Of a DNA stretch of 64,000 nt, positions 16,909 through 61,399 are shown piece by piece. A program made the position numbers and the translations under genes. The stretch's first letter is position 1; every line of letters starts with the position of its first letter. Source of the DNA: Amyelois transitella (Eukaryota; Arthropoda; Insecta; Lepidoptera; Pyralidae); contig NC_083515.1 of the NCBI RefSeq assembly GCF_032362555.1, positions 3,941,001 through 4,005,000 on the forward strand, read 5' to 3'. The notes under the pieces were generated by a model that was not told the origin of the DNA, ran no database searches, and was given only the letters and a program-made list of their open reading frames with translations.

Positions 16909-19900
16909 TTAGCCTCCACGCTGCGTCAGAACAGCGTCAATAAGCAGGACTGCTCCGTTGATGATGGCCAGCGAGGCCTTGGCCAAGTTTTTGTTGGTGT
17001 AGTCATTCTTGGAGGCGTGTTGGTATCTGGAATAATAAAAACAATGGTTCAATTCATAAATAGAAGATTGAAAGTTGTCTGGCAATATTAAGTACATTTT
17101 TTTGTTTTGATGGCCTCTTAGAGACAAAACACTACTCGTATGAGTACTTTTTTAAGTCAAAATAAAATTGTTCCGCATGTTTTAAAAAGAAAACCAAGAC
17201 TATAAAAATCTAGAGTTAAGTAAGTGGATAGATTTGATAGTTTGCAAAGGTTTATATGAAGTATCTGATCGTTAATTGGTTATTATATGACCAAAATAGG
17301 TATTTATGCAATTAAAAGTAAAAAATATAGTAAATTAATTTAACTAAATAAATGAGATTAGTAGCGTTACACGTTTTATGAATTAATTACTTTAATGTCG
17401 TAGGTAAGTTTGCATTGTAAATGTTCCTAGATAATTAATTCTCAATGTCAGGGTTAATAAACAAAAAGTTTACGATTCACAATGTTCTTTCAACTCTTCA
17501 AAAGTCCTTCACTGTAAAAATATATTTTAAACATCGAGATAGTACCTAGTAAGAAATAGTATAAATTATAACCGACATTTTATTTGATAAATCAAGTGAT
17601 AAGTGACTCTTAGTGACTAATATGCATAGCCATTTTTATTACATATTTCTAGAAAGTTGCAGAATTTCATTACGTTAAACATCTGGTGTTCATTCAAACG
17701 TTATCGAGTATGAATTAAATGTAGATAACATTTTTCACAAAAAATGTTGTTATTAAATTTTGTGAAAGTCGGGCCCCACCTGTTACTATTACATTAAAGG
17801 TCAAACGTGTTTTTTTATATATTTTATCATTGTTGTACGTGCAATGTGTTTCCTTTTAATTTAAATACCATTGAGTCATTGTATTAAGTACTTTTAGCAA
17901 TTTATATTCTTTTTACTCTAGCTTATATTATCTGTTAATAGTATTTTAAGTTCATTTGATCTTTCGTTATCCGATAGCAGTAATTAACGTTGTTGTATTT
18001 GTTATCTGCCATAATTTTCGGCCTCACATTATTTTATCCCAAATTGTGATTAATTTGTCGAGTAAAAACACGCGTTACATACCTGTCAATAATAATAGCT
18101 CCGCTGGCTACAAAGAGGGCGACTCCGACCAACGAGTAGAAAATGTCGATTCGCTTGTGCGATGGCGTCTGCATCACGTAACCTGAAATAATGTAAGTAG
18201 GTACAAAATGTTACAACAATAATATTTTTCAAGTAGATTTCACCAGACATTGGATATTAAAAATACTTTCTTGTAACCAATTGCGTTCTTATAAATATTT
18301 AGTCAGATGTGGCACCTTGTGGTTTCTCGCACGTTAGAATAAGAGCACTCCATTTATTTCTCGTTTTCTGTTAGTGCAACAACTTTTACCTAAGCCGGGT
18401 TAAGATCTTCTGTTAACAGAGTCGCAAAAAATGGCAGTTGTTCTGACCTAACTTACCCGCTTCTAGAATGTGATAAGACTTGGCCATGTCGTGATTATGG
18501 CATGATCAAAAGCAAAAAAGCTAAAACAGCGCGACCTTCCCATCAATAAGTTTTTATAACCAGATGGCTTATAGATCTATGAATTAGTGGAGGAATAGTA
18601 CTAAGAAGAATTTGGTGCAAACTCACCAGCCGCAGCACCAGCAAAGATGATGAGGTAGCCCACAAAGGTGCCGGTGACCAGCATGCCGATGTCAGCATCA
18701 GAATTGTAGCTGTGGTAGTGAAGCGCCACACACGAACATGTCAGCGCCTGGAATCAACAGGGATTTTACATTAGAAAATATATTCTTATGTCTTTTTTAT
18801 TTTAATTCCAAGATACGAGTACATAGGTTGGATCTATCATGTCCATTCCAGTAACCCAAAGAACACTGCGAATTCGGCCCTATTACGACGCCATCGCGCC
18901 ATAGAGTTAAATGAGGGGTAACTTGACTAGACCGATGACCCTTTTGTGATTTCCTTAGTTTGATTGCTAACTAATGCTTATGAGTGAAGGAAAAATCGTG
19001 AAGCAACCTACACATTAGGCAGTGGATTTTCCTCCATAGTAGGTACATAGTTTGTTGGTTAACTCTTAATTGCACATAAAAACAAATAAAACAAATTACA
19101 AAACAGTCAACGGATTGAGACGATTATGTATAATGACGGACTTATCCCATAAATTAGGTTTTTTGGAAATAATGTTCTCCTGTTTTTATTTAATTAATAA
19201 AGTTTATTGAGCCTTAAAGGTGGCAACAGGTGAACTTAATATTAAGAGCATTCTTCACCAGTCAACCTTAAGCAAATGGCAAATAGATAAGAAATTTATT
19301 GTACATTGAGAATGATTGATTTTCCTTGAATAAAATGTTTTCACCACTACGGGTTCCAATATAAACAATTCGTTTAATGTCATAGTGATAAGTTTGTTTG
19401 TGCCACTGACACGCTTCAGTCGCCACCCTGTGCCACCCATTACAATTTGTTTACCGCTCATATCCTCGTATCTGATGATTTCATATCTGAAGATATGAAT
19501 AAGAATGTCATAAAACTTTAATTTATATTCAAATTACTTTTTGTGTAATTGGTTCTAGATGAAACGTTTACTTGCAATCTTTTCTATATAATAGGTGCAT
19601 ATTTTATTTCATAATGAACACATCACGTCTTTATTTTTAACGGCGTAGACAGACTAAATAGTCATCAGCTAGTTGTATTAGTAATGGAATTAAGATTCAT
19701 AAGTAGCAGAATAAAAGACGACCATTTTATCTTTTACGCAGATAACATAAAAAATAACTTATACAATAACACAGAATCATTAATATAAATCATTAAAAAT
19801 CTATTTTTAACAGTTAGCTCAGAATGTGTAAAATAAATAGGTCTCTTTTATTTCGATTAACCAGTTTATCATCAACTACTACTATTAATAAATTTAATAT

Positions 19901-22900: not shown

Positions 22901-25801
22901 TTACCGGGCTTTGTTATCATAAGATAACAAAGCGTAGGTGGTTACTGTTATTGTGAGAAATATTTTATATTTTTTCCTGCTGACTGGCACAGCCATCACC
23001 CGCCTTTTTCTTGAAATAATCCAATCAAAGTAGCCAAAAGCTAAAATAAAGCCCAGCCTTAAAAAGCAGACGTTCTACTTTATTTTTACTTTGTAGTTTT
23101 TTAGCTATGGCAGCCCATAAGATGACTATCTTTGTTATGTCCCCATTAAATTTGGGCGTTAGTTCCTGTTTACCTTGGACGGAAACCGGTTTTGGAGAGC
23201 CCCGGGCCGGGAATCGCTTCTATTCCATGTTAAAGAAGTATGCCTACCTACGCTTTAACTGAATGGTCTTTTGTTCATTGGTCTTGACTTTAAGATGAGT
23301 TACAAACGCGCTCCCAAAAAGTTGCAAGGCGAACTTGTACTGTATGTTAACAATAACATCTGTATTATTTTTTCATAATTATCTTTATCAAGTAGAAGCA
23401 AGTGCATGGCCTGACATGCACTTTTTTGTATGGGGTTGCTCTTTCCGTGCCCATAATTAAGCAAAGTTGTTATTTTTATGTTTAGTATCGTGTTGTTATG
23501 AAAGTCCGAATTTCAATAATACTCACTCAATTGTAAAACCAGCGTGCAGTCGTCAATATGTTTATCATAACCGCAACATAACACAACTGGTTTTACTTAT
23601 GCAAATTGTATTTACATTTGTAATCGTATGTACAATTGTCTTGTACCGCGTGATCGCGTCTGAGGTATGTCAGTCATTCGGCAGAATCCAAAGTAGAATC
23701 GTAAATGGCGAGATTAAAGTTAATGGTCAGTGATGTAACCCAATGAGATAACGATTTAACCTTAGCCGTGTCTTAACTCAATGCGATGAGAGGTGGCCGC
23801 GAATCGCGGTCAACAGAAGGCGTTTAAAAGATGTAATTATATGTAAAGCAAACCATGGACCTTGCAAGATATGGTTAGTAATACGAGTATTATCAGATTA
23901 AATGTGCATGTTGAAAGCTCATATGTAAAGTAAACCTTTGCCTTGCAAAATTAAGTAAGTTGTATTAATAGAAAAAATATGAGCATGTATTTAATACTTC
24001 ATTGAAATATACAGCTTAGTACATTTCCTGGTAATTTGAGTTCATTTTAGACGATGTGCTATAAACCTGTTGCGGTTTTTGAATATTACTTCGATTATTT
24101 TTAACCATGCAGCTTAACTGGGCACTAGAATCTAGTGACTATTTGATATGATTACCCTCTATGGAAAAGGTGTCATAAGTTTGTGTAATACTTGTAACAA
24201 AGCTGAGATTAAAGAATTTAAATTAGCAAATTATCTCGTCCAATCGCTGATGGTGTCTCTACGTAGGTTTTCTTAATTTTTTTTATTATTTCAAAGAAAG
24301 TCCACTTAACCAAAATGTGAGGGGTCAATTAATACTCTAATTGTACTTCATGAACTGGAGTTGGCTATTACGTAACTAGAAGTAATGACCGTGGGAAGCA
24401 CGAATTTTTATAGTATTCCATCAAATATATATATTTTTATATACTTGTATATAATTTACAATCAGACATTTTTGATTTCTTACGGGGCTGTTCATACCGT
24501 GCTGTGCTACAGTTCTTACGAAGGTTGGCAATCATCAAGGCTAATTGCACATTCAGACTACTGAATCTGTTACTTTGATATCGGTTAGGGTTCCCTACAA
24601 AGGTTGCAGAGGTCAGATGAGAGTCACGGACAAAAAGGGCGCACCCGGGATCCTCTTCAGCTGAGGCGAGGCTGTAACCGGGACTTATGATAGGAGGAAG
24701 AATATTATTCATTCCTTGAGTGTTTACTTTGTATTCAATGAATGCAGCAACGATTTCACCCATTGCGACACACTATTAAAACTTACGGAACTGTTGTTTT
24801 ATAATCTGTGCACGTCTTTTTTATCCTTCCGTAGTCCATTAAGTCTTCCGTAGGTATCATTATCATAATAAACTTCCTAATTGGAAATAATTAGAAACAA
24901 GTTATACGCTTACTTCTAACTGCTTATGTTTGGCTCTTTCCAATATTCTTTAGTATTTAATATGCTCCTGCAAATCTTTATCTTGGCGGGAATATTACAA
25001 ATGTTTGCTACAAACTTCACCCTTTTCTAAATTGTATGTAGGTAATAAATATAAAACCACCTTAATGTTAATTTGGAATTAAACCAAAAACGAAGGTTAA
25101 TTGTAGGCTGGCATTTTGGGTTATGACGCCATGTCTTATGGTGTTGGTAAAATTATTTATGGTTCCCACATCCCCACGCGCTACGTTGTTAAAACTATTA
25201 ACTGTTGGATTCTTCCCATGCATAGTAATATTTATATTTTTTTATGATATGTGATTTTATCATGTTTATAAATTCCAGCCATTCTCAGTAGAAATTCCTC
25301 TTAATACTGTGTTTATCTTGACAAGCATCCAGTTTTAGAATGCAGATTAAAAATATTTTTAGACAATCGGGTCGTTTCTGGTTGGCGCTATAATAGTGGC
25401 CTATTGCTTCATAGTTAATCAAGAAATAAATAAATTTAGAAAATACATAAAGTTAAATGAAAATTCTATGAAACATAAATACTATTATAATATAGATTTA
25501 CTATAACCAAACGACAACCAATACGATATTAATTTAAATTTCTGTACAATAAAGACAAACCAACAAACGATTTACTAAAAGAAACACATGCACATATAAT
25601 AATAAAAACAAGACACCTTTTGAGAAAAAAGGTAAAAAGAAAGTTGTTGTCAGTATGAGCGGGACGCCACCGTATTGGTAAATAAAAGCAGGTGCGCGTA
25701 CGTTCCAACGCAACCATACGACTACAATACTGGTTGTATTTACATACAATTCGACTTACCAACTCCAAAAATTTAACAATTGACAATCTGCTGATAGCCA
25801 T
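16909..25801 (-). CDS. Snakeskin-like four-pass membrane protein (gene A)
   Basis: Four exons, in coding order: 25801-25760, 18747-18627, 18182-18083 and 17026-16909 (TAA). GT/AG borders and phases 0, 1 and 0 give a 126-residue protein. Exon 1 encodes MAISRLSIVKFLEL; this start was chosen because exon 2 opens in phase 0 on a membrane segment with no Met, and this short ATG exon ends in a consensus donor. Hydrophobic segments are at about residues 10-25, 34-55, 67-88 and 103-120. The layout resembles insect Snakeskin (Ssk), a small four-pass protein of smooth septate junctions: a charged N-terminus, an extracellular H-Y-x-S-Y/D loop, VTGTFVGYLI in TM2 (compare ASGVIVGYLI in Ssk), and LAIINGAVLLIDAVL in TM4 (compare LCVINGAIYLIDTAL). 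It is shorter than Ssk and is probably a paralogue rather than Ssk itself. Intron 1 is about 7 kb and carries repeats and hairpins. Confidence 0.85.
17027..18082 (-). other. Intron 3 of Ssk-like gene A
   Basis: AT-rich, with a donor at 18082-18081 (GT on the minus strand) and an acceptor CAG at 17029-17027. No feature was recognised inside. Confidence 0.8.
19620..19710 (-). repeat. TATG-tailed interspersed repeat, diverged reverse fragment
   Basis: Landmarks tcacgtctttat, gcgtagacagac, taatggaattaagattca. Confidence 0.6.
20370..20435. promoter_or_regulatory. Cluster of CRE/ATF-like sites in gene A intron 1
   Basis: A perfect TGACGTCA palindrome at 20370-20377, TGACGTGT at 20399-20406 and TGATGTCA at 20428-20435 all lie within 66 bases. 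These match the CREB/ATF bZIP consensus exactly or nearly so. A regulatory role is inferred. Confidence 0.35.
21755..21862 (+). repeat. TATG-tailed interspersed repeat with internal deletion
   Basis: Reads gattcttcttgtaggcgatg, then gggctagcaaactgttacta, then skips about 45 bases of the unit to ccttttcaagactgttggct and ends at catagacgtgatta. Confidence 0.8.
22834..22932. repeat. Three abutting hairpins including a perfect 60-bp palindrome
   Basis: Just before the palindrome is a small stem (tatatac, five-base loop, gtatata). 22849-22908 is a perfect inverted repeat with 28-bp arms around the loop ATAA. 22909-22932 follows with no gap and is another perfect inverted repeat: 10-bp arms (ctttgttatc / gataacaaag), again around ATAA. 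It lies in intron 1 of Ssk-like gene A. No ORF or known transposon end was recognised. Confidence 0.92.
24588..24690 (-). repeat. Second dispersed repeat family (cuticle-region type), reverse fragment
   Basis: ggttagggttccctacaaag, gttgcagaggtcagatgaga and gtcacgg match, in reverse, the family also seen at 37795, 47695, 48178 and 58360. A 108-codon open frame across it is therefore not taken as a gene. Confidence 0.6.
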
Positions 25802-25859: not shown

Positions 25860-28800
25860 TCGCGGGCGTTCAGGGTGAGACGCTAACTGAGACTGCGCAT
25901 GGCGTGCACGTATTTCGTAACGCGCGAGTGAATAACAAACGATGAGATCATAGCTTGTCGTATCGTAATCGTAGCTTTGTCGTATAATACACCTACTCCA
26001 TCCTATTGTCGAAATAATATCAATCACGATTGTTTAAGTATTTATTTCTTTGTTGAAGAATTCATCTTAACTACATTTGTACAATTCATTTTTTTTTGTT
26101 TGTCCTTTAATTTTAATGTTTACTAAAACTAAACTAGGTGAAAAGCGTGAACTAATCTGATTATAAGGTCAAATTTTATTTTTACCGACATCACATTGTA
26201 GGTATGTTCCACACACACCTCTTTCCGGAGGACAGAGAGTTCCTACTGACACGTCGATTAAGGGTATTCGTAACCTCACCTTTCGCTAGAATGTATCCCA
26301 AATTGATTATTAAGCCTTCCCCTTCCAACGTCTCCATTTAAACCGTCTTTTATATTTCTTTATGCCTTGAAAAATTTCCTCTTCATGCAAATTATTACGT
26401 TTGGAGTCTAAGTTTCTCTTTAAAACTTAAACATAATAATAAAATTACTATACCCAATCAATATAATTAAGGAAGCTGAGTTTTGGTGACAAATATCTGC
26501 AATATTTACAAAGGTCGACCTATTGATAAGTCTGAATTACTAATGTACCTATTATACTTGGTACTTGTTGTGTACGTACTCTATGATGACGAATTATTTG
26601 GAATTATGAAGTCATCACGTTTAAATATCACCAATGTATCAGAAACTTATAATTATAATGACGTACCAACGGAATGTGGCCTTTATGTACTTTATTCTTC
26701 CTCTACCTTTTGACAGAGTTCAGGCCATGAGTATAGAGTACCGATAGATATAGAGAACCGCCAAGCTGGCATGAAGAGAATTATGAATGCGTATGAAGCG
26801 AAAGAATTATGCAGGGCTGTAAGTGAATATAGATTCTGCCTACCCCTGCGAGGAAAAAGCGTGATTTTCGTGTAAATAGATAATAACAATCATCAACTAA
26901 TACAATAGAACTCTTGGTTTCCCAAGTTGACAATAACCGAACAAAGTACCTACTGAGGATAGGAAAGTGAAATTTAGCACAGATGTTTATAGGGTGTATA
27001 GAGGAGAACCACAACATTGGGGGATGAAATGAATGGGGAATACTTTCCCCAAAATTTGAATTTCCCCAAAGAATGGGAAATACTTTCTCGTTGCCAGAGC
27101 TGCGGGCTCAAGCAAGTTGTTCATAATATGCAGAGAAATGATCTTAATGAATGAGGATTTCGTGTTTCGGAATCCAATCCAAACTGCTCTTTCTCTCTAG
27201 AGTCCGTTATTTTAGAAAAAAGAAATTCCATTGTACATACATACAAATAATCACGTCTTTATCCCTTACGAAGTAGACAGAGCCAACACCTAGCTAAGAT
27301 TGGAAGACCACGTTCAGCTCTTTAGCTCAATGACGGAATTACCATTCAAATAGTGACAGACTGCCTAAAAGAAGAATCCCAAGTTTATTAGCCTATCCCT
27401 TAATCACTTTTTACGACATTCATGGGAAAGAGATAACGTAGTGGTTCTATTCTACTGGTGTGTGGGCAAACAAACGGCTTTCGTTAATTCAGGAGACATT
27501 GAAATAAAACAAAAATAATTTACTGTGGGAAGACTTTGTAGGAAGGATTTAATGCCAAATCACTTTAGCATTATATGTATATTTAGGCAGACTAAGATGA
27601 TCCTGGCTCCATAATATAAGATTATTATTTCTAAATGTTTATACAGAATTTTCCTCGGATGACTGAATACTTAGATGATGATAACCCGGTATGACCTCAT
27701 TATAAACATACGATATAATTAATATTGATTTTATTCAGTTTTAAAAGTAGGTCTTGGCAAAAAAATATACACATGTATGTTTATTAAAAATGCAATCATA
27801 TGTAACGAACAATAATAATAATTTATATCAAAGAAATTTCATAGTACTCGACGTAGATAAACATTATTATTTTAATATTATATTTATGTAAAAAAAATGT
27901 AATAACTTGTTGACCTACAGCCTCCCAAGTTCTTGATTCGTAACATGAACTAAAATATCTCAAAAGCTTACGCAATACGCTAAACAATTTGTCCTTCGAG
28001 GTTTATATCAAATGTGTTGAAGCCAGCACAAGCCAAATGAGTTGTTTGCGAGTTAATTAACATGGATGTGACTTTGTTTTGACGATGTTTTTGTTAAAAC
28101 TTTTAATTTTTAATATTAAAGCGACGCATGAATAAAATCCTGACTGTTTAATTCTGCCCTCGCAGCATTGCTGTTTCGCTTTTTATTTTGACGTGAAACG
28201 GGACAGCGATAGTTATTCGCGCGATGCGAAGTGAGGTATTACCTAATTAATTTACGGTAGCCTTAAATAACAATCTGTCCCGGTGAGATTGTATCATATA
28301 ATCTTAGCTTTTCTTAAGTACATTATAATAAGTGGTACTCATTTTACTCCACCCCCACTTTATTTTTTTAATATTACTCACTCGGTTGACTAGTATAACG
28401 AAAATAAATTATTCCATAGAAATAGGGATAAAGAGTATATACATAAGTCATACATATATTTGTGTGTGTGTGTGTGCGAGTGAAATTTGTATCTGGTTAC
28501 CTATCAAAGATCAGCTACGAAGGGAAATGTTCAGGGTGTTGTAAAATTAAAGTGGTGAAACCTTAAGCTTTATGACGCCTTTTGATTTAAACTTGTCCCA
28601 TTTTATTAATATGATGTTGATCCCAGTAATCAAGACTATAATTTGCAACCTGTACCGAAGGCGAGGTTAATAAGGAAGCTGGAATGAGAGTATAATAGTT
28701 TTGAACTTGAGGTCATACTAGCGCCATTATTGAGTTATGATTTGTAAAAAAATCTTTATTATGACCCGATGTGAACTTTCACTTATTTTTAACCTTCATT

Positions 28801-29591: not shown

Positions 29592-29866
29592 TTACTGGTA
29601 CATTCGACCGCCACAGGGCTCCGGCTTTTCGCTGTCACTTGAATACTTGCGAGCGTTACAAAGAGATATTAGGGAATCTATACAGAATACTGCAGAAGCG
29701 GCTAGTGCACACACAGCGCAGGCGTGGGCGTAAAAGTATCTGTCTGAGGGGGGGACGTCTTTCCAGGAGAGGAGGGTGAGAGCGCCGCATGCGCCGAACA
29801 GCACGGCGCCGAACGCCGCCCACCAAGAGCTTACGTACGGGTCCGCTGCCGCTGAAACTGCTTCTC
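29592..29866 (-). CDS. Gene B alternative last exon 3b (TM3-TM4, Ser/Pro/Cys tail)
   Basis: The acceptor (attattacag) precedes 29866 and has the same phase as exon 3a. The frame reads GEAVSAAADPYVSSWW, TM3 (AAFGAVLFGACGALTLL), a loop with KDVPPSDRYFYAHA, TM4 (AVCALAASAVFCIDSLISLC), then a hydrophilic tail KYSSDSEKPEPCGGRMYQ. The FCIDSL at the end of TM4 corresponds to LLIDAVL of gene A. No separate TM1-TM2 exon for it was found between 29867 and 31493, so sharing the 31494-31617 exon is the simplest model. A third gene with distant 5' exons is the alternative. Confidence 0.72.
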
Positions 29867-32800
29867 CTGTAATAATGAATTATTTCTTCTATCGCATTTA
29901 TGGACTTCCTACGACAGCATTAATTAGTAAACTCAATCATGGACAAGTATTTTAATTCAATGGGATTTAATTATTTTTATATTTTCACGCTTACCAATTT
30001 TTAGGGTAAAATTATTGCATGACAGTACAAACTGTAGTAGAATATACCTACATATGACATATATAGATATAAGATAGATCGATAAAAACAGCAATGTTTC
30101 TAACAAGATTACAATGTCTTCATCTAAAATAATGTTATCTCTTCGATACTGATACCAAATGACAGAATAGGGATAAGCTCCACACTTATAAATTCGAAAG
30201 ATTTTAACTAAAATGATGAATTAATTAAACTATTTAAGTCAATATACTTGTTACTTCCAGCCGCATTTATACTATAACCTCCAACACTACAAACATTAAA
30301 ATTACACACTTCACATGCTCGGCGCTTCCTCATCAAACTCTTCCGAGTCCAGATACGCCAAACTCAGGTCGAAGAACATGATGATTCCCGTGGCGACCGA
30401 CACGGACCCACACACCATGGCTCCCAGGTGGTCTCCCGTCCTGGGACACGGGGACTTTCTTGTCCTTCCCGAAAGCACCATACTCCCGCTTGTTAGAAAC
30501 AAACCCACTCCGAGGATCCCGAAATACATGTCTTGTACAAGGTCTAATGGCGCGAATATCATTTCTCCTAAAATAAGGGAAATTTCAAATAGTATTCTAC
30601 ACATTTTTGTAGTAACGATAGTATAAATGCGACTGTCAAATGTAAAAAATGAAAATTATTAGTAATAGATAATGTAAATATTTTTTCAAAATCTGTTCTC
30701 CAACGACAGCAAGACCTTTTAAAAATTAAAATTACAGAGAGATAAAGGAACTGAAAATGTCAAGGTCTAAAATTATCTTAAGACTTTACACTAATTCAGG
30801 TAACGCACTTTGCAATTTGGCTATACTATCTGCATAATAACCTTTTTGTATTAAAAAGTGAATGGGAAACAGTCCAATATGTAAAATACCTAACTACATA
30901 ATTATTTAAGAAACAAGATGTCTTGTTTTACAAAAAATCTCCGAAAATCTTATAGTGCAGATTTTTGCCATTGATTCAATTGCCATGATACAAGCGAGAC
31001 TTATTAATATTTAAAAGTAGTTTCCGATATGTGCTCTCTCTATGCTGGTGCTCGTAAACTCAAAAGATAATACGCTAATTTAAGTACACGAGGTAGAGCA
31101 ATAAAGAAATTAGGTAGGTAACTACATATACTGCATATGAAGCTAGAGTTGGTCGCAAGTTTAAAAATAATTAGCTGTTTCAGACACATAAACATGGTTT
31201 CGTAAAGCGTGCCGATTGTAAAAGTCAATCAAGGGAGAAGCTTATAAACTTGGATCTTTCTTTTTAGGCTTTATGAGCTAGCAACCTGTCGCTATTTAAA
31301 TCTCAATTTCATAATTAAGCCACGCTGGTGAACGTGATTTTTAGTCTTTTCAATTCTGTGGGCTCTTTCCGGGATTCTCCCTTTCAGGGATAAAGACCTG
31401 ATTCTATATATGTATGTATGTAAACATGGATTTCCTTATAAATACTTGTCTCTTTTACAGAAGACATATACACTACCTACTCTTATAACTTACCAATAAT
31501 TTCTCCTGAGAGGACTATGATGAATCCCACATACGTTCCTGAACACAGCATAAATGTCGGCAGGTCTGTCAAGTCGTAGCTGTAGTTATGTAATGTGAGG
31601 CAGGCTATTGTTAATGTCTAAAAAATAAAAAATTACATTCTGTTATTTTTTCGCTGAATAACTCAACCAAATATATGCGCCGACGTGCCTCTTCAGTTTT
31701 TCAAGTTGAGCCTTGCGATATGCTTTGAGATCAAACCTACATGTCTACATAAAATCACGTCTATTATTCTAGAACATGAACTTTATCATTCATATCATTA
31801 TATTCAATCATCAGAATATCCTCTGTTTGATCAAAAATAAAAATGCTAGCTAAATATTGTACATTTTTTGTTAGGAAAGGAAAAATTGGCCTACCATACA
31901 GTTTGAAAAAAAAAACTGTTGGATAATTAAAAATACAGGACAAAGCGACGAACTTACTAATTCCATAAACTTTATTAAACAAGTCGGTATAAGCATTTTG
32001 CTATAATATTTAATTTGTTAACACCTAATAAATAAAATTACAGTCACAAAATCAGCACAATTTTACATTACATCCAAATATGCCAAACGCAATAAACTGT
32101 CAAATTATCAAAAACCAAAGACAAAATTGCAATAAAAAATACATCTATGGCGCCATTTATTTTGAATTAGCGAGCCCCAGTTTCGCAGGGGTAGCATTTA
32201 TTGGTTCAACAATATCTAATTGCCGTGTGGATCCCGGCACCAATACCAAAATAGATGTTGTAAAAGGCGACTAAGGGATAGGCTTACAAAATTGTAATTC
32301 TTTTCAGGCCATGGGCTAGCAACCTGTCACCATTTGAATCTCAATTCTATCATTAAGCCAAATAGCTGAACGTGGCCATTCAGTCTTATCAAGACTGTTG
32401 GCTCTGTCTACTCCTCAAGGGATATACATAGACGTGACCAAATGTATGTATGTATGATTGTATGTAGTTACAAGCTGACAATCGAATCTCAGGATCACGA
32501 AATCACAGCAACGTTTAAGGGTAAAACGTTTCTAAATTCTACACATTATAAAACACGGTGTAAATATATCCTATGCAAATGTATAAGATGCATCCGGGTT
32601 CCTGTAAAGAGATGAGAGGATATACATACATACATAAATATGGTCACGTTTATATCCTTTGCGCGGTAGACAGAGCCAATATATGAGAGGATATAACTAG
32701 GATTAAAGCTAGAAGGAGGACGATATATTCTAGAATTTAGATAGAAGCTATACTTATTCAAGTAAAAATTGGGAAACAATTTTACGATACTGCTAGAACC

Positions 32801-33104: not shown

Positions 33105-34620
33105 AAGTAATTACTCAAATATTCCGATTTTTCTGTAACATTTATTTACCTACTGTTAATAACCGTAATTATTTTTTTATCATATCTTTGTATTTCATCA
33201 AATTCTAATATTTACAAACATCACGATTTTTCATTGTATTTCATGGGTTTTTTTCGAAGCGCTATACAGGCTATGAAATGAGAAATTACATTTTTAATTT
33301 TCCATTCTCCAGGCAGATTAAATTTGCCGCCAAAAGGGTATCAAGAGATCACAGTGGTGATTCTGTTTGCATGGAAGAGTGTGAAAGTACCTAAGTCGAT
33401 TTTTAAATATTCAAAATTTTCAAATGCGGGTTCTGCACAGGATATTCGTAGTGATAATTATTGTGTTGCGTACCCAAAGGGTACCCAATACCTATAGTCC
33501 TTTAACGAAACATTTAATTGAAAGGATGTTTAGTTTATGTCTTGTCATTTGTCGTTACTTTTTAACTTTTTAACCTTCTACATTCCCATGGAAGCAAATG
33601 CCTATTTAAAAAGCTAGTTTTGCATAAAACTATAATATCAATATATTTATATTCAAACCTCTTGTGTTACTAAGTGCCTGACAGACAATGTACAGTCAAA
33701 GTGAAACCAATTAATCCACGCTCTGACTTAGGAGGAGTAGGAGAGTATTATGAGAATCCTGGCTAAATTCCCAAGGGATGGAAAACGAATTTTTTTTTCA
33801 TTTACGCTGGTAGAGTTCCAAGCATAATCTAATGAAACGACGCTTATTAGGTCAAACCATACATTGGTCTAAGCCAAATTGTATAAGGTATTTGAACCGA
33901 AATCATACAGATCATGCAAATCTAAATCCGAAAAAGTAATCGCATAACCTATTTTCTCGACCCCGTATCGACGAACATCCCGAAACAATCAAATTTACAA
34001 GAAATTTCACGAGCTACGCGAAAGAATGAATAAAATTATCCAACATTTTTTTTCTGCTGATCGAATTTCGTTGATAACTTTCTTGATATAAATTCTTTTA
34101 CTTATTCTTTTGTTCATTTTAATTAGCAAATAACTTTACATTTATTTAATTAGTTAAAGTTTGTTTTAGAAAAATAATAGCGACTTCGCTGTGATGTAAG
34201 GCATGGTATGGATGATCAAATGCGACTGGAGGCATCCCGTTGGTTATGTAAATAATAGCAAAAAAACGCATTTAGCGTTATTGTTATCGGCAGTGTACGA
34301 CGAAAGTCGACCAAAGTCCATCAAATATTTCGAAGCCACAATGAAGTGAGAAAATTTTCTAAATTTTTTTCGATAAGATTTTATTAGAAGATTCGAAAGA
34401 TTTTGACCAAGTTATTATAACCAATTGCAGATACTGTGATCGAAAACGGGCTTTAATGACAGAGAAATAGAGAAAGAGCTATGCTTGATGATAAATCAAA
34501 GTACAAATGCATTAAGCCACAATCTACGGGAGCTTGCAATCCCATTGGAGTTCAAATCTGTGTTGATTGCTTTTCAAGCGATTTTCCTTTCGTTTACGGT
34601 CATTGGGTAAAATTACTTTT

Positions 34621-34690
34621 GATACATACATACATGTAATAACGTCTATATCGCTTGCGGGGTAGACAGAACAAACAGTTTTGAGAAGAT
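34621..34690 (-). repeat. TATG-tailed interspersed repeat, tail fragment (reverse)
   Basis: gatacatacatacatgtaat, aacgtctatatcgcttgcgg, ggtagacagaacaaacagtt. Confidence 0.75.
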
Positions 34691-35757
34691 ATAAGAAAAA
34701 AATTTATATCAAAAGGTAACATTTATATATTTATTATATATTTTTATCATGAATATTACATTAAATAAGTTGACTCAGCTATTTTGCGGCTTATTAACAT
34801 ATATTTTTTTCTAAATAAGAAAATCCTTTTTACTTGTAACATAGTGGGTGAAGAGTAAGGCCACAGCACCCTCTTAAGCTGGTACCTATCTGTTTCGTGA
34901 CAAAAGTGATCGTGATTTTCGTGTAATACGGATCATATCTAGGTATCTGGGTTCAGGGCCGCATTATATTGCCAACATTTAGGGCGGAGCGCTGTGGTGC
35001 AACAGAATTATATTGGAAACAGGCAATGAAACAACTTATTCCATCCTTCTCATTTGATTACGACCTAATTGAAAGGTTAGAAAAGATAAGGACCTCCATT
35101 ATCGATCATGATAAATGCCAGGCCAATAAATGCGGGTTCGTAAAATCTTTCTTCTGTAATATCGGCTGATATAGTCCTGTGTAATATTTTCTCCACCGAT
35201 AACATCAAGATCTTCAATCTAAAAATTCATCTTAAACTTATTAACAATGTTCGTCAATGATTTATCTATAGATTTCTGTTTATGAAATGATCATTCAAAT
35301 ATTCACGAATCTCTTATAAATTTCTGATTGGACTTTGATTTGTTACTATTTGAATCTCAATTCTATCAGATGTGTAAGATGAAAAAGAGAGAAAAGTCTT
35401 ACTCTCTAAAAAGGTTTAAGAAAATGACTTAACTGGTTTATATTAAAAATTATGTAATTTAACTAACATATCCCTGACCATTCAAAGTAGTACTAGTAGT
35501 ACCTAACTTTGGAAAAGTAAATCAAATTCCGAAGTAAAGTCACGAACAGCCCGACATTTGGAAGCAGCAGCCGGTCACGCCATCTACTGATGATTGGTCT
35601 ATTTGATTCCTAACATCACATCACATTACACTTTGTTTATCTTTTTTTATATTGTTTATGGTATTTAAAGTTTTTTATATACAATTTTATTTGCTGAAAT
35701 TGGTCTGTGAGAAATTTCGTTCTTTTTGTATGACATGCTCATGATATTATAAATACA

Positions 35758-40170: not shown

Positions 40171-42370
40171 ATGCTCGGTTTGGTAAGTTAAGGTTTAATT
40201 ATTAGTCGTAAATAATTATTGAAAAATTTCATCGCTGTACCCAAGATTTGTCTATACGTGATTGTGTTATAACTTTCGGTATTAGCATAAACATCAATTT
40301 AATAGATATATCATGCTTAGGATATGTAAACAATGAGAATAGTTTAACAAATTCCTTAAAAAACGTAAAAGCAACTCACGTGTCATAAATGATCAGTCTC
40401 TGGTTTTCAACTGAAAACAAACCCTAATTGGTTTCACATAATGTTCAGGTCACCGTGGTCTCCGCTCTCATAGCGATCAGCTCTTGCGGTCGCTTGGAGC
40501 CCCAATATCTTCCACCTCGACCGGGGGGTGGCGGCGGGGGCTATAGCGGATCAGGAGCTGGGGGGTCTTTCAGTGGGTCTGGTGGATCCGCTGGTGGTTT
40601 CGGAGCCGGAGGCAGCGGTGGGAGCGGGTTCAGCGGAGGATCTGGAGGAGCCAGTATCCCTATAACTAAGTTTGAAAACGTAAACAATGGTGACGGCACA
40701 TACCAATTTAGGTGGGAATACTTCTGTTATATCCTTTAGAACTGTTAATAATTCTATGACGCAATTCAGTGATACTGGTTGTTAATGTAAACTCAAAGTT
40801 CTGGACTTTCAGCAGCATTAGGATTATTCGTTAAAAAGAAATAATTGAATTTAGTTTAGTATGTATGAGTATATATAAAAAATATTCAATGATCAAGTGG
40901 AGGATTCGCTGCTCGAAATTTCCTTCGTAGAAATTAACACAATTTTAAATATTTCAGTTACGAGACTGGCAATGGCATATCAGCGCACGAAAGTGGCGCG
41001 CCCCGGGCCCAGGGTCCTGAAGGGCCAGCAGTGACCGCTGAAGGTGGATTCTCGTACCGTGCCCCCGACGGCCAGCAGATCGGCCTCACTTACACGGCGG
41101 ACGAGAACGGGTTCCATCCCGTGGGACCTCATCTCCCCACCCCGCCCCCAATACCAGAGGAGATCCTCCGGTCAATTGAGTTTAACAAGCGTAACCCGTC
41201 ATCGTAAGTATTATCTTAATTAAATCGGTCTTTCTCTTGTGTTGTCCCAATTCATAAATTTACTATATTTATACTTTAAGAAGGATTGGGATTGACGCCT
41301 ATTCTAGTTAAAAAATCCGTGAAAGTTTATCCTGGCAAATGGTGAGATCAAGGATACCCCTAGACGACGAGCTTGTAGCTTGCTTGGACCGTAGCAATGA
41401 GAAAGATTTAGTCGCTCTCTATCCTTTCCAGAAGGAAACGTTATTATATGAATGAATTTAAAAGTTTAATTATATTTTCTACATCATTATCGCAACCAGT
41501 GAGAATCTTATTACTTTTTGTTGCATTAGAAGATACAAGGATGCGATAAAAAAGTTGAATAACTGCCTATGTTGCAAATTTAAGCAATTTATAGAGTCTA
41601 ATTTTGAAGCACGTTTAATGCAACATTGCTTTTCAGATTAAATTTGTAAGTGCATGTTTGCAGTGAGGACTTACATTTTTAGAGGCAAATTTTAATTGTC
41701 ATTTGTCTTGTTCAAGTAATGCGCGTCTTAAAAATAATTTATTTATCCATTCCAAACTACTATTTATATCATATAAAATAAGTTTTGTTCTTTGTAACAA
41801 CCTCTTCACAGTTACAGCACTAAACCGTTCGTCATAAAATTAAAATACATAAGTAGACATAGTATAGAGTACGGAAATGGACATAGGGTACTTAAAACAC
41901 AGCCGGCGCCGCGGGTGAACGCTAGTGCACAATTAAGATTAATAAACACGATTAACAAACATCTAGCAATAGGTGTGTGTGGTACCTATTGCTTGATCAA
42001 TATGTTTATTAATCTTAATTGTGTAGGCAAAAATAGAAAAAAAAACTAGGACTACTCCATTTTTCCCACATGGATGTTGGTAAAACCGACTAAGAGATAG
42101 GGTTATAAACTTGGGATTCTTCTTTTAGGCGATGGTCTAGCAACCTGTAACTGTTTGAAGCTCAATTCTATTATTAACTCAAACAGCTGAACGTGGCCTT
42201 TTACTCTTTTCATGACTGTTTGCTCTGTCTACCCCGCATGGGATATAGATGGATGCACGGATATGTATGTATTTATCCAAAATTTCGTCTCTTTCAGCGA
42301 GGGCGCTTACAATGGCGGCGGTGGCTCCGGCGCTGGTGGTTCTGGAGGGGCCGGCGGTTACCGTTACTGA
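40171..42370 (+). CDS. RR-1-like cuticular protein, glycine-rich (cuticle gene 1)
   Basis: Exons 40171-40182, 40449-40711, 40958-41203 and 42298-42370 (TGA) join in phase to 197 residues. The tiny ATG exon (MLGL) followed by a signal-peptide exon ([14 protein letters not shown]) is the classic insect CPR gene layout. Residues 27-70 are a Gly/Ser-rich run. [11 protein letters not shown] leads into the Rebers-Riddiford chitin-binding region: about 93-158, with [38 protein letters not shown] and the aromatic positions in place. The C-terminus is Gly-rich, ending GGYRY. It is expected to be secreted and to bind chitin in soft (endo)cuticle. RR-1 rather than RR-2 is inferred from the lack of the longer RR-2 basic motif. 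Intron 3 contains a TATG-tailed repeat and a stem-loop. Poly(A) signals after the stop are only variants (AATATA near 42411). Confidence 0.95.
41928..42023. repeat. Nested inverted repeat in intron 3 of cuticle gene 1
   Basis: Outer arms 41928-41948 and 42003-42023 are perfect 21-bp reverse complements. Inside them a second pair (agcaataggt / acctattgct) forms a 10-bp stem around a GT-rich loop. Confidence 0.9.
42058..42272 (+). repeat. TATG-tailed interspersed repeat in intron 3 of cuticle gene 1
   Basis: Landmarks ttgggattcttcttttaggc, gatggtctagcaacctgtaa, acagctgaacgtggcctttt, tctgtctaccccgcatggga; ends about 25 bases before the last exon. Confidence 0.85.
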
Positions 42371-45875: not shown

Positions 45876-47333
45876 ATGAGTTCTTTGACGGTATACTATT
45901 TTTAATTTGTATATTTTGAAGTATCTTTATCAATGCTTTTGTTTAATCACATTTTAATGAATATGGAATATTTCGTCTTCAAAACAATGAACTCATTTCA
46001 ATAGTCAGCAACATAATAGTTTTAGAATCTATGGTTTAAAAAAGGCCAAGACACAGTCATTTTTGGGAATTTTGTTGCTATAGGTAATATGCATTTACAT
46101 AGATTATTGCAAATTTAACATCATATAATTTGGGGTTAGAGGAATTACAGATATTTGTTTTTTTTATCAACAAGTTTTATATATTTTTTTCTATAGATTG
46201 TATCCAGCCTAGCCTTATTGGCAATCGTATCGGCCGGACAGTACCATTCGCAGTACAATGGCGGGTTCGGAAGCGGCGCAGGCGCAGGTTTTGGCGCCGG
46301 TTTCGGATATAGCGGCGGCGCTAACATTCCCATACTGCGGTATGAAAACGTGAACAACGGCGATGGCACTTATAGATACAAGTAAGGTTTAGGATTTTTC
46401 TTTATTAAGACTAAGAATTTTATGTAGAAAGAATCTACACAGCTAATTCAATCAAAAAGTGTTTTAATAACTAACATACTTACACATACATAAATCACTT
46501 CCATATCCCTTACGGGGTTGACAAAGCTAACAGCTAACAGGTATAGAGTGGTCCTATTACAAAATGCCGGGAACTACACGGACTTATCCTAGCCACAAAA
46601 AATACCCAATGATAAATACTAGAATTAAGCACCTGATTTACCCAATCCGGGATCATGGGATCATCACACCTAGTAATTAATATTAGTTAAGTTAAGCTTG
46701 TTATCTAATAACATTTATAACCCACAGTTACGAAACTGGCAATGGCATCTCAGCACATGAGAGTGGCGCGCCAAGGGCCCCGGGACCCGAGGGCCCCGCG
46801 GTGACAGCGGAGGGCGGATTCTCGTACCGCGCCCCCGACGGCCAGCAGATCTCACTCTCCTACACGGCGGACGAGAACGGCTTCCACCCAACAGGTTCCC
46901 ACATCCCCACTCCACCCCCCATCCCTGAGGCTATCCTTAGGTCCATCCAGTTCAACAGGCAAAACCCTTCATCGTAAGTAACATCGTATCTATATTTTTA
47001 CAAATTTAGGACTACAAATTAAATCGTCTACAATGGCTAATTATTTAAAAGCATTATAAAAAATTTAACAATTGTAATGGACTTATGTATTAATTCGCGG
47101 AAAAAAACAGTTTTTCTTTCTACATACGGTAACTTTACTTGCTCTTCTGTTATCACACAAATCGTTCTGAATCTGTAAATCAACAATCAAGGTTACATTC
47201 CAACATTCTCAGCTCTAAATTTATATCTTACGAACAATATTATCAAAATCAATATCACACGATAACATTGGTTTGTTTCAGCGGAGACGGGTATTACAAT
47301 GGTGGGAGATACAATGGAGGCTACCAGTATTGA
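45876..47333 (+). CDS. RR-1-like cuticular protein (cuticle gene 2)
   Basis: Exons 45876-45890, 46197-46381, 46728-46973 and 47282-47333 (TGA) give 165 residues. MSSLT plus [13 protein letters not shown] forms a signal peptide, with likely cleavage after VSA at residue 18. A Gly/Ala/Phe-rich linker and [12 protein letters not shown] precede the Rebers-Riddiford region at about 68-133: [38 protein letters not shown]. The C-terminus is Tyr/Gly/Asn-rich ([16 protein letters not shown]). Introns sit at the same codon positions and phases as in cuticle gene 1. AATAAA signals follow at 47374-47379 and near 47432. It is expected to be a secreted chitin-binding structural protein of the cuticle. Part of exon 3 is almost identical to cuticle gene 3 (see findings). 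Confidence 0.95.
46480..46580 (-). repeat. TATG-tailed interspersed repeat, both ends with the middle deleted
   Basis: In intron 2 of cuticle gene 2. The tail side (cttacacatacataaatcac, ccatatcccttacggggttg) is joined almost directly to the 5' side (tagagtggtcctatt, atgccgggaactacacgg). Confidence 0.75.
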
Positions 47334-50376: not shown

Positions 50377-51974
50377 TCAGTAGCGATAAGCATTGTTACG
50401 ACCTCCGTTATAGGCACCATCATCTCTGTAATAAAAAAAATTAAAGAATAATGAATTAAGCATACAATAAATATACAATGAAAGAAATTAAATAGGTACC
50501 TACACGTAGTTGCAGGCACTTTAGAATAGAAGCACTCCATATCTCACTCATGGATGTCGTTAATGGTGACTAAGGGAATGACTAAAAAACTTGGGACGTT
50601 CCCTGTAGGCGATGGGCTAGCAACCTGTAACTATTCAACCGAATTTCGCCTTTCAGTCTTTTTAAAAATGTTGGCCCTGTCTACCCCGAAAGGATGTGGA
50701 CGTGATTCCGACGTAAACAGAATTATTCTTTGTTTTGAAGACCATCGGGGGTCAGGTTATAACAACGTTTGTGAATAGCCCTCCAAGATTCGAAAAGCAT
50801 ATCTTAGCCTATTCACGAACGTTGACACAAAGAAAAAAAAATTTAACGTTTATTTTAACGTATTAAAGTTTGCAGTTGCAAAAATTTAACTACTTACGAA
50901 GATGGATGCTGCCTGTTGTACTCTAAAGATCTGAGGATGGCCTCAGGGATGGGGGGTGGAGTGGGGATGTGGGAGCCTGTGGGGTGGAAGCCGTTCTCGT
51001 CCGCCGTGTAGGAGAGTGAGATCTGCTGGCCGTCGGGGGCGCGGTACGAGAATCCGCCCTCAGCTGTCACCGCTGGGCCTTCGGGACCCTGGGCTCTAGG
51101 GGCTCCACTCTCGCGTGCTGAGATACCAGTTGGAGTGTCGTAACTGGAAAACATTGTATACTTAAAAGTATGTTTCATACACAAACATCACGTCTTTTTC
51201 CTTAAGGGGTAGAAAGATATTGAGATTTGAACTGTGTCAGTTGCTACCATATCACCTAATAGAATCCCAAGTTGGTACGTATTCGTTTATTCTTTATTCT
51301 TAAAACTGACAATGTCTGGTAGAGAATACCTTATGGCATTAAGTCCACCTATGGTTCATTATTTCGGTTCGATAAAGTTTAAATAAATAAATAAATATCT
51401 TACAAAAACCAACCTATGAAGTTTGTATTTCCTGAACTCACGCAAAAACAAACCTTAGAAAGCTAATTTTGGTGATAACAAGAATAGAATATTTTTTGTA
51501 ATTACAGAGTACGTATAGGTCTAGTATGATGATATATGAAACTAAAAATAATAATAATGTTAAAAAATTAAATTCATTTCAATAGTCTAACCTGAAACGG
51601 TATGTGCCATCTCCATTATTAACGTTTTCATAATTAGAAGGAGGTCCGCTGAAAGCGCCTGCGCTGGCGCCGCTGTATCCTGGCGCGAGATGATCCAGGC
51701 GGCCGGCTGATGTCAGTGACATAATGGCGGTGAAACAAATGAGTATCTGAGAAAAGTAAAAGCATTTTCAGTAATACTGGAACGATAAAATAATAATATG
51801 AATAAATTGTATTGTAGATAAGGGCAACTAAATTAAAGGATATCTATAAAATATAAGTGGTATCCTTTTTTTTGTTTTTTTACAAAAGGAAGTCAAAATT
51901 TAGCGCAGCTATCAGCAATTCACAATACCAGGAGGTGAAACAATGGCTGTTCAGTTCCTTACCAGTTTCGACAT
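50377..51974 (-). CDS. RR-1-like cuticular protein (cuticle gene 3)
   Basis: Exons in coding order: 51974-51963, 51746-51592, 51143-50898 and 50425-50377 (TGA); 153 residues. Exon 1 is just ATG TCG AAA CTG before a GTAAGG donor, matching the tiny first exons of the two plus-strand neighbours. [18 protein letters not shown] is a signal peptide (cleavage expected after residue 18). A short linker and [14 protein letters not shown] lead to the Rebers-Riddiford region at about 57-122 ([38 protein letters not shown]). The tail is [15 protein letters not shown]. It has lost most of the glycine-rich linker seen in gene 1. It is convergent with cuticle gene 2. Expected role: secreted chitin-binding cuticle component. 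Confidence 0.95.
50500..50716 (+). repeat. TATG-tailed interspersed repeat in intron 3 of cuticle gene 3
   Basis: Diverged copy, antisense to the gene: cactccatatctcactcatg, gatgtcgttaatggtgacta, gcgatgggctagcaacctgt, ggccctgtctaccccgaaag. Confidence 0.8.
51180..51277 (-). repeat. TATG-tailed interspersed repeat fragment in intron 2 of cuticle gene 3
   Basis: catcacgtctttttccttaa, ggggtagaaag, then an internal gap to cacctaatagaatcccaagt. Confidence 0.6.
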
Positions 51975-60369: not shown

Positions 60370-60912
60370 CGTCGTCGGGTCTTCCCACACTCCCTTAGGG
60401 GAGTCGGAGTAGATTGGTCAGGGCTTTTGGCCCTCTTCAATGGCATCATCGCTGCCTACGACTGTAGGCAGGTCGATGGGGCGGCCGTGACGGCCTGGGT
60501 CTTCACGTCTTCATACACTGGGAGTTCCCATCGGCGGCGGCGTTGTCACTGGTCGACGACTTCTGCCGCAAGGCAGCGAGGGGAGGGTTTCACCCGACGG
60601 CCCGGAGGGCGGGCGTGGAGCGGCGAGATGCCGCGCAGGTGGCTGTGTGATGACGCGTCCCGCGTCTCGAATATCTATGTTCTCCCACTTCAGGTCCCTG
60701 AGGATCGTCGAGTTCCTCACGTAGCGCGGGGCTCCGACGACTGCTCTGAGACTTTGGTTCTCTTGGGCTCTGAGTCTTCTCCTGTTGGTCTCAGAGCAGT
60801 ATGCGTACCACGCCGGGGCCGCGAACGTGAGGCGGGATCTGACGTACGTTTGGTAGATCCCGAGCTTCGTCCTCAGGGGGAGGCTGGAAGAGAGAACTCC
60901 CCCTGGCTGCCT
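60370..60912 (-). pseudogene. Jockey-like non-LTR retrotransposon remnant (end of reverse transcriptase ORF plus 3' UTR)
   Basis: The minus strand from about 60905 reads TKLGIYQTYVRSRLTFAAPA, WYAYCSETNRRRLRAQENQ, SLRAVVGAPRYVRNSTILRD, LKWENID. This is the familiar C-terminal end of jockey/CR1-group reverse transcriptase ORFs (K..IY..YVRS.LTYAAPAW, ..Q...LR...GAPR.VRN..I..DL). The frame then loses similarity, and 60370-60510 is the 3' UTR-like part. The longest plus-strand frame (60427-60921) is its antisense shadow. 5'-truncated and not functional. Confidence 0.75.
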
Positions 60913-61399
60913 TGGTCATGAAGCTTGCGCTCGCCTCCTGCCCCTTTTATACCCTGCTTCCGCTAGCCGCGTCGAGCGCGGCAACTGTTACGCAAAAATA
61001 ATCCTTATAGCATGATTCAGTATTTACGCGCGATGGCTTGTTAGGGTATTTTATTTCATGTATAAGTTTGGTGTTTCTATACCGATTTCGATGATTCTTT
61101 TTTTATTGAATAGGTATTTATATTAATTTTTCAGAATTATGAATGAGTGTGAGTGTTATTGGTATTATAAACATCAGAGTAAAGAAATATAATCAGAAAT
61201 CTCCGAACTGCTAAGCTATTAGGAATTACATGTGTTATTGTGAGTCAACCATAAAAGATAGACTTATGCTGTCTTGGGATATTTTTTTCATAATTTTATG
61301 TAGAATATTTCCGTTATACATGGTTTTGCTGCATCTTTAACCATTAAGGCTGCACACGCGACGGAAGCTTAAAAAATCAAGTAGCTTCTCCCGTTTTCT

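Follow-up and report, generated by a model that had tools for sequence, protein, structure and literature searches.

Two candidate tandem last exons in a small four-helix membrane protein gene of Amyelois transitella

Tandem duplicated exons that exchange the C-terminal region of a protein are an established kind of gene arrangement, as documented in a survey that counts 236 tandem duplicated exon substitution events in human, 77 of them C-terminal swaps, and 154 fly genes with tandem duplicated exon events (PMC9741552). For example, the survey describes tandem duplicated 3′ exons in the tropomyosin genes TPM1 of human, Tm1 and Tm2 of the fly and lev-11 of the worm. The gene considered here, termed gene A, resembles these events in that adjacent homologous last exons appear to exchange a C-terminal region. 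It differs in that the unit exchanged is half of a four-helix membrane protein, the two versions are identical at 18/82 positions, and the exchange is predicted from sequence.

A second system for comparison is claudin-18, whose forms CLDN18.1 and CLDN18.2 differ in their N-terminal 69 amino acids owing to two alternative first exons, according to PMC11464258. The likeness lies in a four-helix protein with one half exchanged by alternative terminal exons; these are first exons in claudin-18 and last exons in gene A, and no sequence relation is claimed.

Within the accessible portions of the literature surveyed on Snakeskin and septate junctions, MARVEL proteins, claudins, alternative last exons and tandem exon duplication, gene A is not described, and a half-swap of a four-helix protein by last exons was not met. 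Neither do the available parts of PMC7341793, PMC6296663 and PMC13072181 describe the gene, and literature searches gave no match for the term DUF7775 and none for Snakeskin four-transmembrane paralogs in insects. A first-pass annotation of this DNA had called the arrangement undescribed, which holds for this gene in the surveyed literature but goes too far for the kind, given PMC9741552.

The window, meaning the whole 64-kb stretch of DNA that was analysed (contig C11, 3941001-4005000), belongs to a genome of 327 Mb in 33 contigs, and both gene A and a paralogue, gene B, lie on its minus strand (Table 1).

Table 1. Predicted features of gene A and its tandem paralogue B (coordinates are those of the window)
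Feature	Position	Strand	Description
Gene A exon 1	31958..31996	-	start codon; MLIPTCLIKFMEL, the N-terminal part of TM1; donor GTAAGT, phase 0
Gene A exon 2	31494..31617	-	remaining TM1, first outer loop, TM2; entered in phase 0, left in phase 1
Gene A last exon 3a (alternative)	30311..30567	-	TM3-loop-TM4, acidic tail, stop TGA
Gene A last exon 3b (alternative)	29592..29866	-	TM3-loop-TM4, Ser/Pro/Cys tail, stop TAA
Two ATTAAA polyadenylation-like hexamers	29951..29971 (starts 29971, 29956)	-	between 3a and 3b
Gene B exon 1	25760..25801	-	MAISRLSIVKFLEL; donor GTAAGT, phase 0
Gene B exon 2	18627..18747	-	TM1 end, TM2; 43% identity (35 columns, E 2e-5) to exon 2 of gene A
Gene B exon 3	18083..18182	-	TM3; reading around tblastn match
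Gene B exon 4	16909..17026	-	TM4, stop; reading around tblastn match

Several other features occupy the same window. A dispersed short repeat family, SINE-like by eye, occurs in both orientations within gene A and close to it (27219-27419, 31216-31441, 32255-32473 and 34617-34691). Three insect cuticle protein exons form a small cluster (40959-41204 and 46729-46974 on the plus strand, 50897-51142 on the minus strand), with Chitin_bind_4 matches of 60.9, 62.5 and 58.2 bits, respectively, and translations that are much alike over their whole length. An exon at 971-1243 on the plus strand matches, at 73.7 bits, the beginning of the Fam20C Golgi casein kinase C-terminal domain. Finally, an open frame at 60514-60915 on the minus strand resembles, by eye, a fragment of a non-LTR retrotransposon reverse transcriptase and matches no Pfam family with an E of 1 or less.

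Gene A is probably a four-helix protein gene with two tandem, homologous and mutually exclusive last exons. Its exon 1 (MLIPTCLIKFMEL) resembles exon 1 of gene B (MAISRLSIVKFLEL), and because this short exon precedes exon 2 in phase 0, TM1 is divided between the two. The first-pass annotation had overlooked exon 1 and taken exon 2 for a whole TM1-TM2 unit, which has to be corrected, as TM1 straddles the junction. At its 3′ end, exon 2 reads AAATTATTG and is followed directly by gtaagt, in phase 1. Joined to 3a it gives a protein of 139 aa (A-a), and joined to 3b one of 145 aa (A-b); in either case the frame is intact, the splice sites are canonical, and four hydrophobic helices are seen in a Kyte-Doolittle analysis. 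The introns measure 340 bases between exons 1 and 2, 926 between exons 2 and 3a, and 1627 between exons 2 and 3b, with 444 bases separating 3a from 3b. Recomputation bore out what had been reported of the exons themselves, namely that 3a and 3b share their phase, a Gly-Glu opening and a pair of helices, that each has its own stop, and that their tails differ, the net charge being -6 for the acidic tail of 3a and +1 for the near-neutral tail of 3b. A single-sequence AlphaFold2 model of 3b places helices at 9-30 and 39-76 (mean pLDDT 66.2, pTM 0.38).

The signals around the two last exons were also compared. Both exons open with GAGAA, and the divided Gly codon and subsequent Glu are therefore completed identically. 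The acceptor sequence is cccttattttag ahead of 3a and ttcattattacag ahead of 3b. Counted by eye, pyrimidines make up 12 of the 15 bases before the AG for 3a and nine for 3b, and the acceptor of 3b is therefore usable yet weaker. As for polyadenylation, the gap between 3a and 3b holds no AATAAA, and ATTAAA and other variants are all that occur there, while downstream of 3b an AATATA lies directly past the stop and the first AATAAA about 635 bases away. A sigma-70 promoter scan of the same gap gave three matches against 3.5 expected, under a model that is inapplicable to an insect gene.

That the polyadenylation signals are variants, and that 3b has both the weaker acceptor and the weaker match to gene B, would be compatible with one of the last exons being a dead or dying relic, in which case the gene would make a single protein. 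This is improbable. Both 3a and 3b are open and G+C-rich, and both retain a splice signal, two helices and a tail. Open readings of 80 codons or more that follow an acceptor number 29 in the window (both strands, with overlapping readings counted separately), and at least two helices are found in three of these, which are 3b, 3a and an overlapping, longer version of 3a; random windows yielded 13.7 such readings each and 0.35 with two helices, in a first-order Markov null of 40 windows that does not keep local G+C. The G+C content is 0.53 in 3a and 0.57 in 3b; by comparison, the gap that separates them has 0.28, the intron preceding 3a has 0.31 and the sequence immediately after 3b has 0.40. 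GC3 is 0.65 and 0.58 in 3a and 3b, respectively. Neutral drift was simulated with 1000 runs per setting, at an AT-rich equilibrium base composition chosen by the analyst. On drifting to 60% identity, 3a stayed open in 148/1000 runs and 3b in 66/1000, with G+C of at least 0.52 in 1 and 66. At 45% identity the open copies fell to 66/1000 and 31/1000 (0 and 1 with G+C at or above 0.52), and at 30% identity to 16/1000 and 7/1000 (0 and 0). Since copies that drift far seldom stay open and G+C-rich, a long-unused copy of either exon is unlikely, and the last of these settings argues against an old relic in particular, the actual pair standing at 18/82 identity. A recent loss would leave few marks, as the copies still open at 60% identity show, and is less unlikely than an old one.

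Gene B, which was absent from the earlier reading, is a tandem paralogue of gene A that extends from 25801 to 16909 and begins about 3.8 kb beyond 3b. It was found by tblastn with gene A exon 2 (match 18747-18646), by reading around the matches and by an exon-1 motif scan. In BLASTP comparisons with B, A-a is identical at 36/118 positions (31%, E 3e-21) and A-b at 35/116 (30%, E 5e-19), and both alignments run through TM3 and TM4. In B these two helices are separated by an intron that neither 3a nor 3b possesses. A genome-wide search with B, at E up to 10, returned four matches, namely B exons 2, 3 and 4 and gene A exon 2; as the search used one query, exon by exon, and scored best candidates only, the four matches are no proof against further members in the genome. 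A PDB sequence search with B was uninformative (best E 0.083), and two scans for relatives in viral contigs gave 16 and 27 pattern matches, none of them confirmed, as expected.

The second half of B provides a third sequence against which 3a and 3b can be measured. Among these second halves, 3a and 3b share 18/82 identities, 3a and B 16/72, and 3b and B 15/72, with alignment scores of 46, 60 and 43, respectively, so that 3b matches B less well than 3a does. Shuffles that preserve hydropathy class reached the real score in 0/2000 cases for 3a and B, 3/2000 for 3b and B, and 0/2000 for 3a and 3b, and full shuffles in 0/2000, 0/2000 and 1/2000, respectively. Judged by these alignments, 3a and 3b are homologous exons, and they are arranged as tandem exons are, adjacent, in the same phase and each with an acceptor and a stop. 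The statement of the first-pass annotation that the two share almost no sequence was thus too strong, given their 18 identities and the shuffle counts.

The divergence between 3a and 3b is about that between A and B. Either the pair is therefore old, or 3b derives from a neighbour that has been lost, or one of the copies has been evolving faster; 3a, 3b and the second half of B are three sequences that form an unrootable set. It is rather doubtful, although conceivable, that the two exons arose long ago, perhaps as early as the A/B split, and have been kept across Lepidoptera. Capture of 3b from a lost neighbouring paralogue, in place of birth by exon duplication, is very improbable; it is a variant of origin within the best explanation, its odds being included there, and 3b would still serve as an alternative last exon today. 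The near-equal identities among the three sequences are in keeping with such a capture, as are the scores by which 3a is nearer to B (60) than to 3b (46). However, B's intron between TM3 and TM4 is missing from both 3a and 3b, and if that intron is ancestral, its absence from the pair is a shared loss.

Those same identities, which place 3b at no smaller distance from 3a than separates each of them from B, would also be consistent with 3b terminating a distinct gene that is interleaved with gene A and has its own first exons in another place, for instance a far-upstream duplicate spliced over gene A, and B itself shows that whole-gene duplication of this family has taken place at the locus. 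Such a gene would require upstream exons of its own. A tblastn search of the window with exon 2, at E up to 10, gave 12 rows: exon 2 itself, B exon 2 (2e-5) and 10 others at E of at least 0.55. A structural scan for exon 2 on both strands returned those of A and B and a frame at 780-651, which was taken as unrelated (0.3 expected per strand under the null). Matches to exon 1, sought with a narrow motif, were exon 1 of A, exon 1 of B and 60919-60848, the last of which was dropped as unrelated. The first-pass annotation had named a separate TM1-TM2 exon serving only 3b as one observation that would speak against its reading, and none was found in the 64 kb, by tblastn or by structural scan, apart from that of B. 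The B exons lie downstream of 3b and so are unable to precede it in one ordinary transcript. The genome-wide search with B, within its scope of one query and best candidates, likewise added nothing beyond B exons 2-4 and gene A exon 2. A separate gene is thus quite improbable; in one variant of it, the partner of 3b would be distant or very diverged. With the last exons as tblastn queries, 3a and 3b recovered one another at E 0.22 and 0.16, and B exon 3 at E 0.003 and 5.8, and the remaining rows, at E of at least 0.71, were dropped as chance instead of being taken as a third last exon.

Genes A and B likely belong to the DUF7775/MARVEL neighbourhood, a wider family link suggested by profile matches. 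Against Pfam DUF7775 (PF24985, cut-off 25 bits), B scores 27.5, above the cut-off, and A-a and A-b score 21.0 and 23.7, below it, with both A forms aligning along the profile. Against MARVEL (PF01284, cut-off 32.8 bits), B reaches 28.5, below the cut-off, and the A forms have no listed match. Taken by itself, 3a matched no Pfam family, and 3b matched unrelated families only, weakly (best E 0.028).

Snakeskin (Ssk) is a small four-helix protein of smooth septate junctions, and the first-pass annotation had called gene A Snakeskin-like. This is apt only in the sense of membership in the broad four-helix family, and Snakeskin itself is too specific a name for the gene. An approximate Ssk query passed the MARVEL cut-off at 37.3 bits, fell below that of DUF7775 at 22.7 and aligned to B with 33% identity over 102 aa (E 1e-12); the same approximate query gave no alignment with A-a and a weak one with A-b (19%, E 0.001). 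Moreover, the first loop of this approximate Ssk is longer and carries a conserved motif that A and B lack. As the likeness reaches the broad four-helix family level only, a role for gene A at junctions or in membrane domains is a guess from family.

The exchange of last exons in gene A remains the best explanation; the sequence tests mostly favour it, and the interpretation first put forward is partly supported overall. Everything up to and including TM2 (N-terminus, TM1, first outer loop) would come from exons 1 and 2. Splicing of exon 2 to 3a, with polyadenylation before 3b, would yield the 139-aa form with its acidic tail, and skipping of 3a, with splicing of exon 2 to 3b, would yield the 145-aa form, in which the TM3-loop-TM4 part differs and the tail is near neutral. 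The choice between an early and a late terminal exon could be made through splice-site strength or through the two ATTAAA signals. MARVEL-like proteins usually have both ends in the cytoplasm. With this topology, the swapped part of gene A would run from TM3 through the second outer loop and TM4 to the tail; the common first half would retain membrane insertion and partners, and the exchanged half would alter the second outer loop as well as the cytoplasmic tail.

If the exon pair is indeed ancient and kept across Lepidoptera, one gene would give rise to two four-pass proteins with a common first half and a wholly different second half, mirroring the arrangement of claudin-18, and each form might define its own kind of epithelial contact or membrane domain in insects. 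If both forms are made, a small gene exchanges half of a four-helix membrane protein through the choice of its last exon, and automatic annotation of such genes may overlook one of the forms. Finally, the pair would in that case serve as a natural test of whether the first or the second half determines the partners and the location of MARVEL-like proteins.
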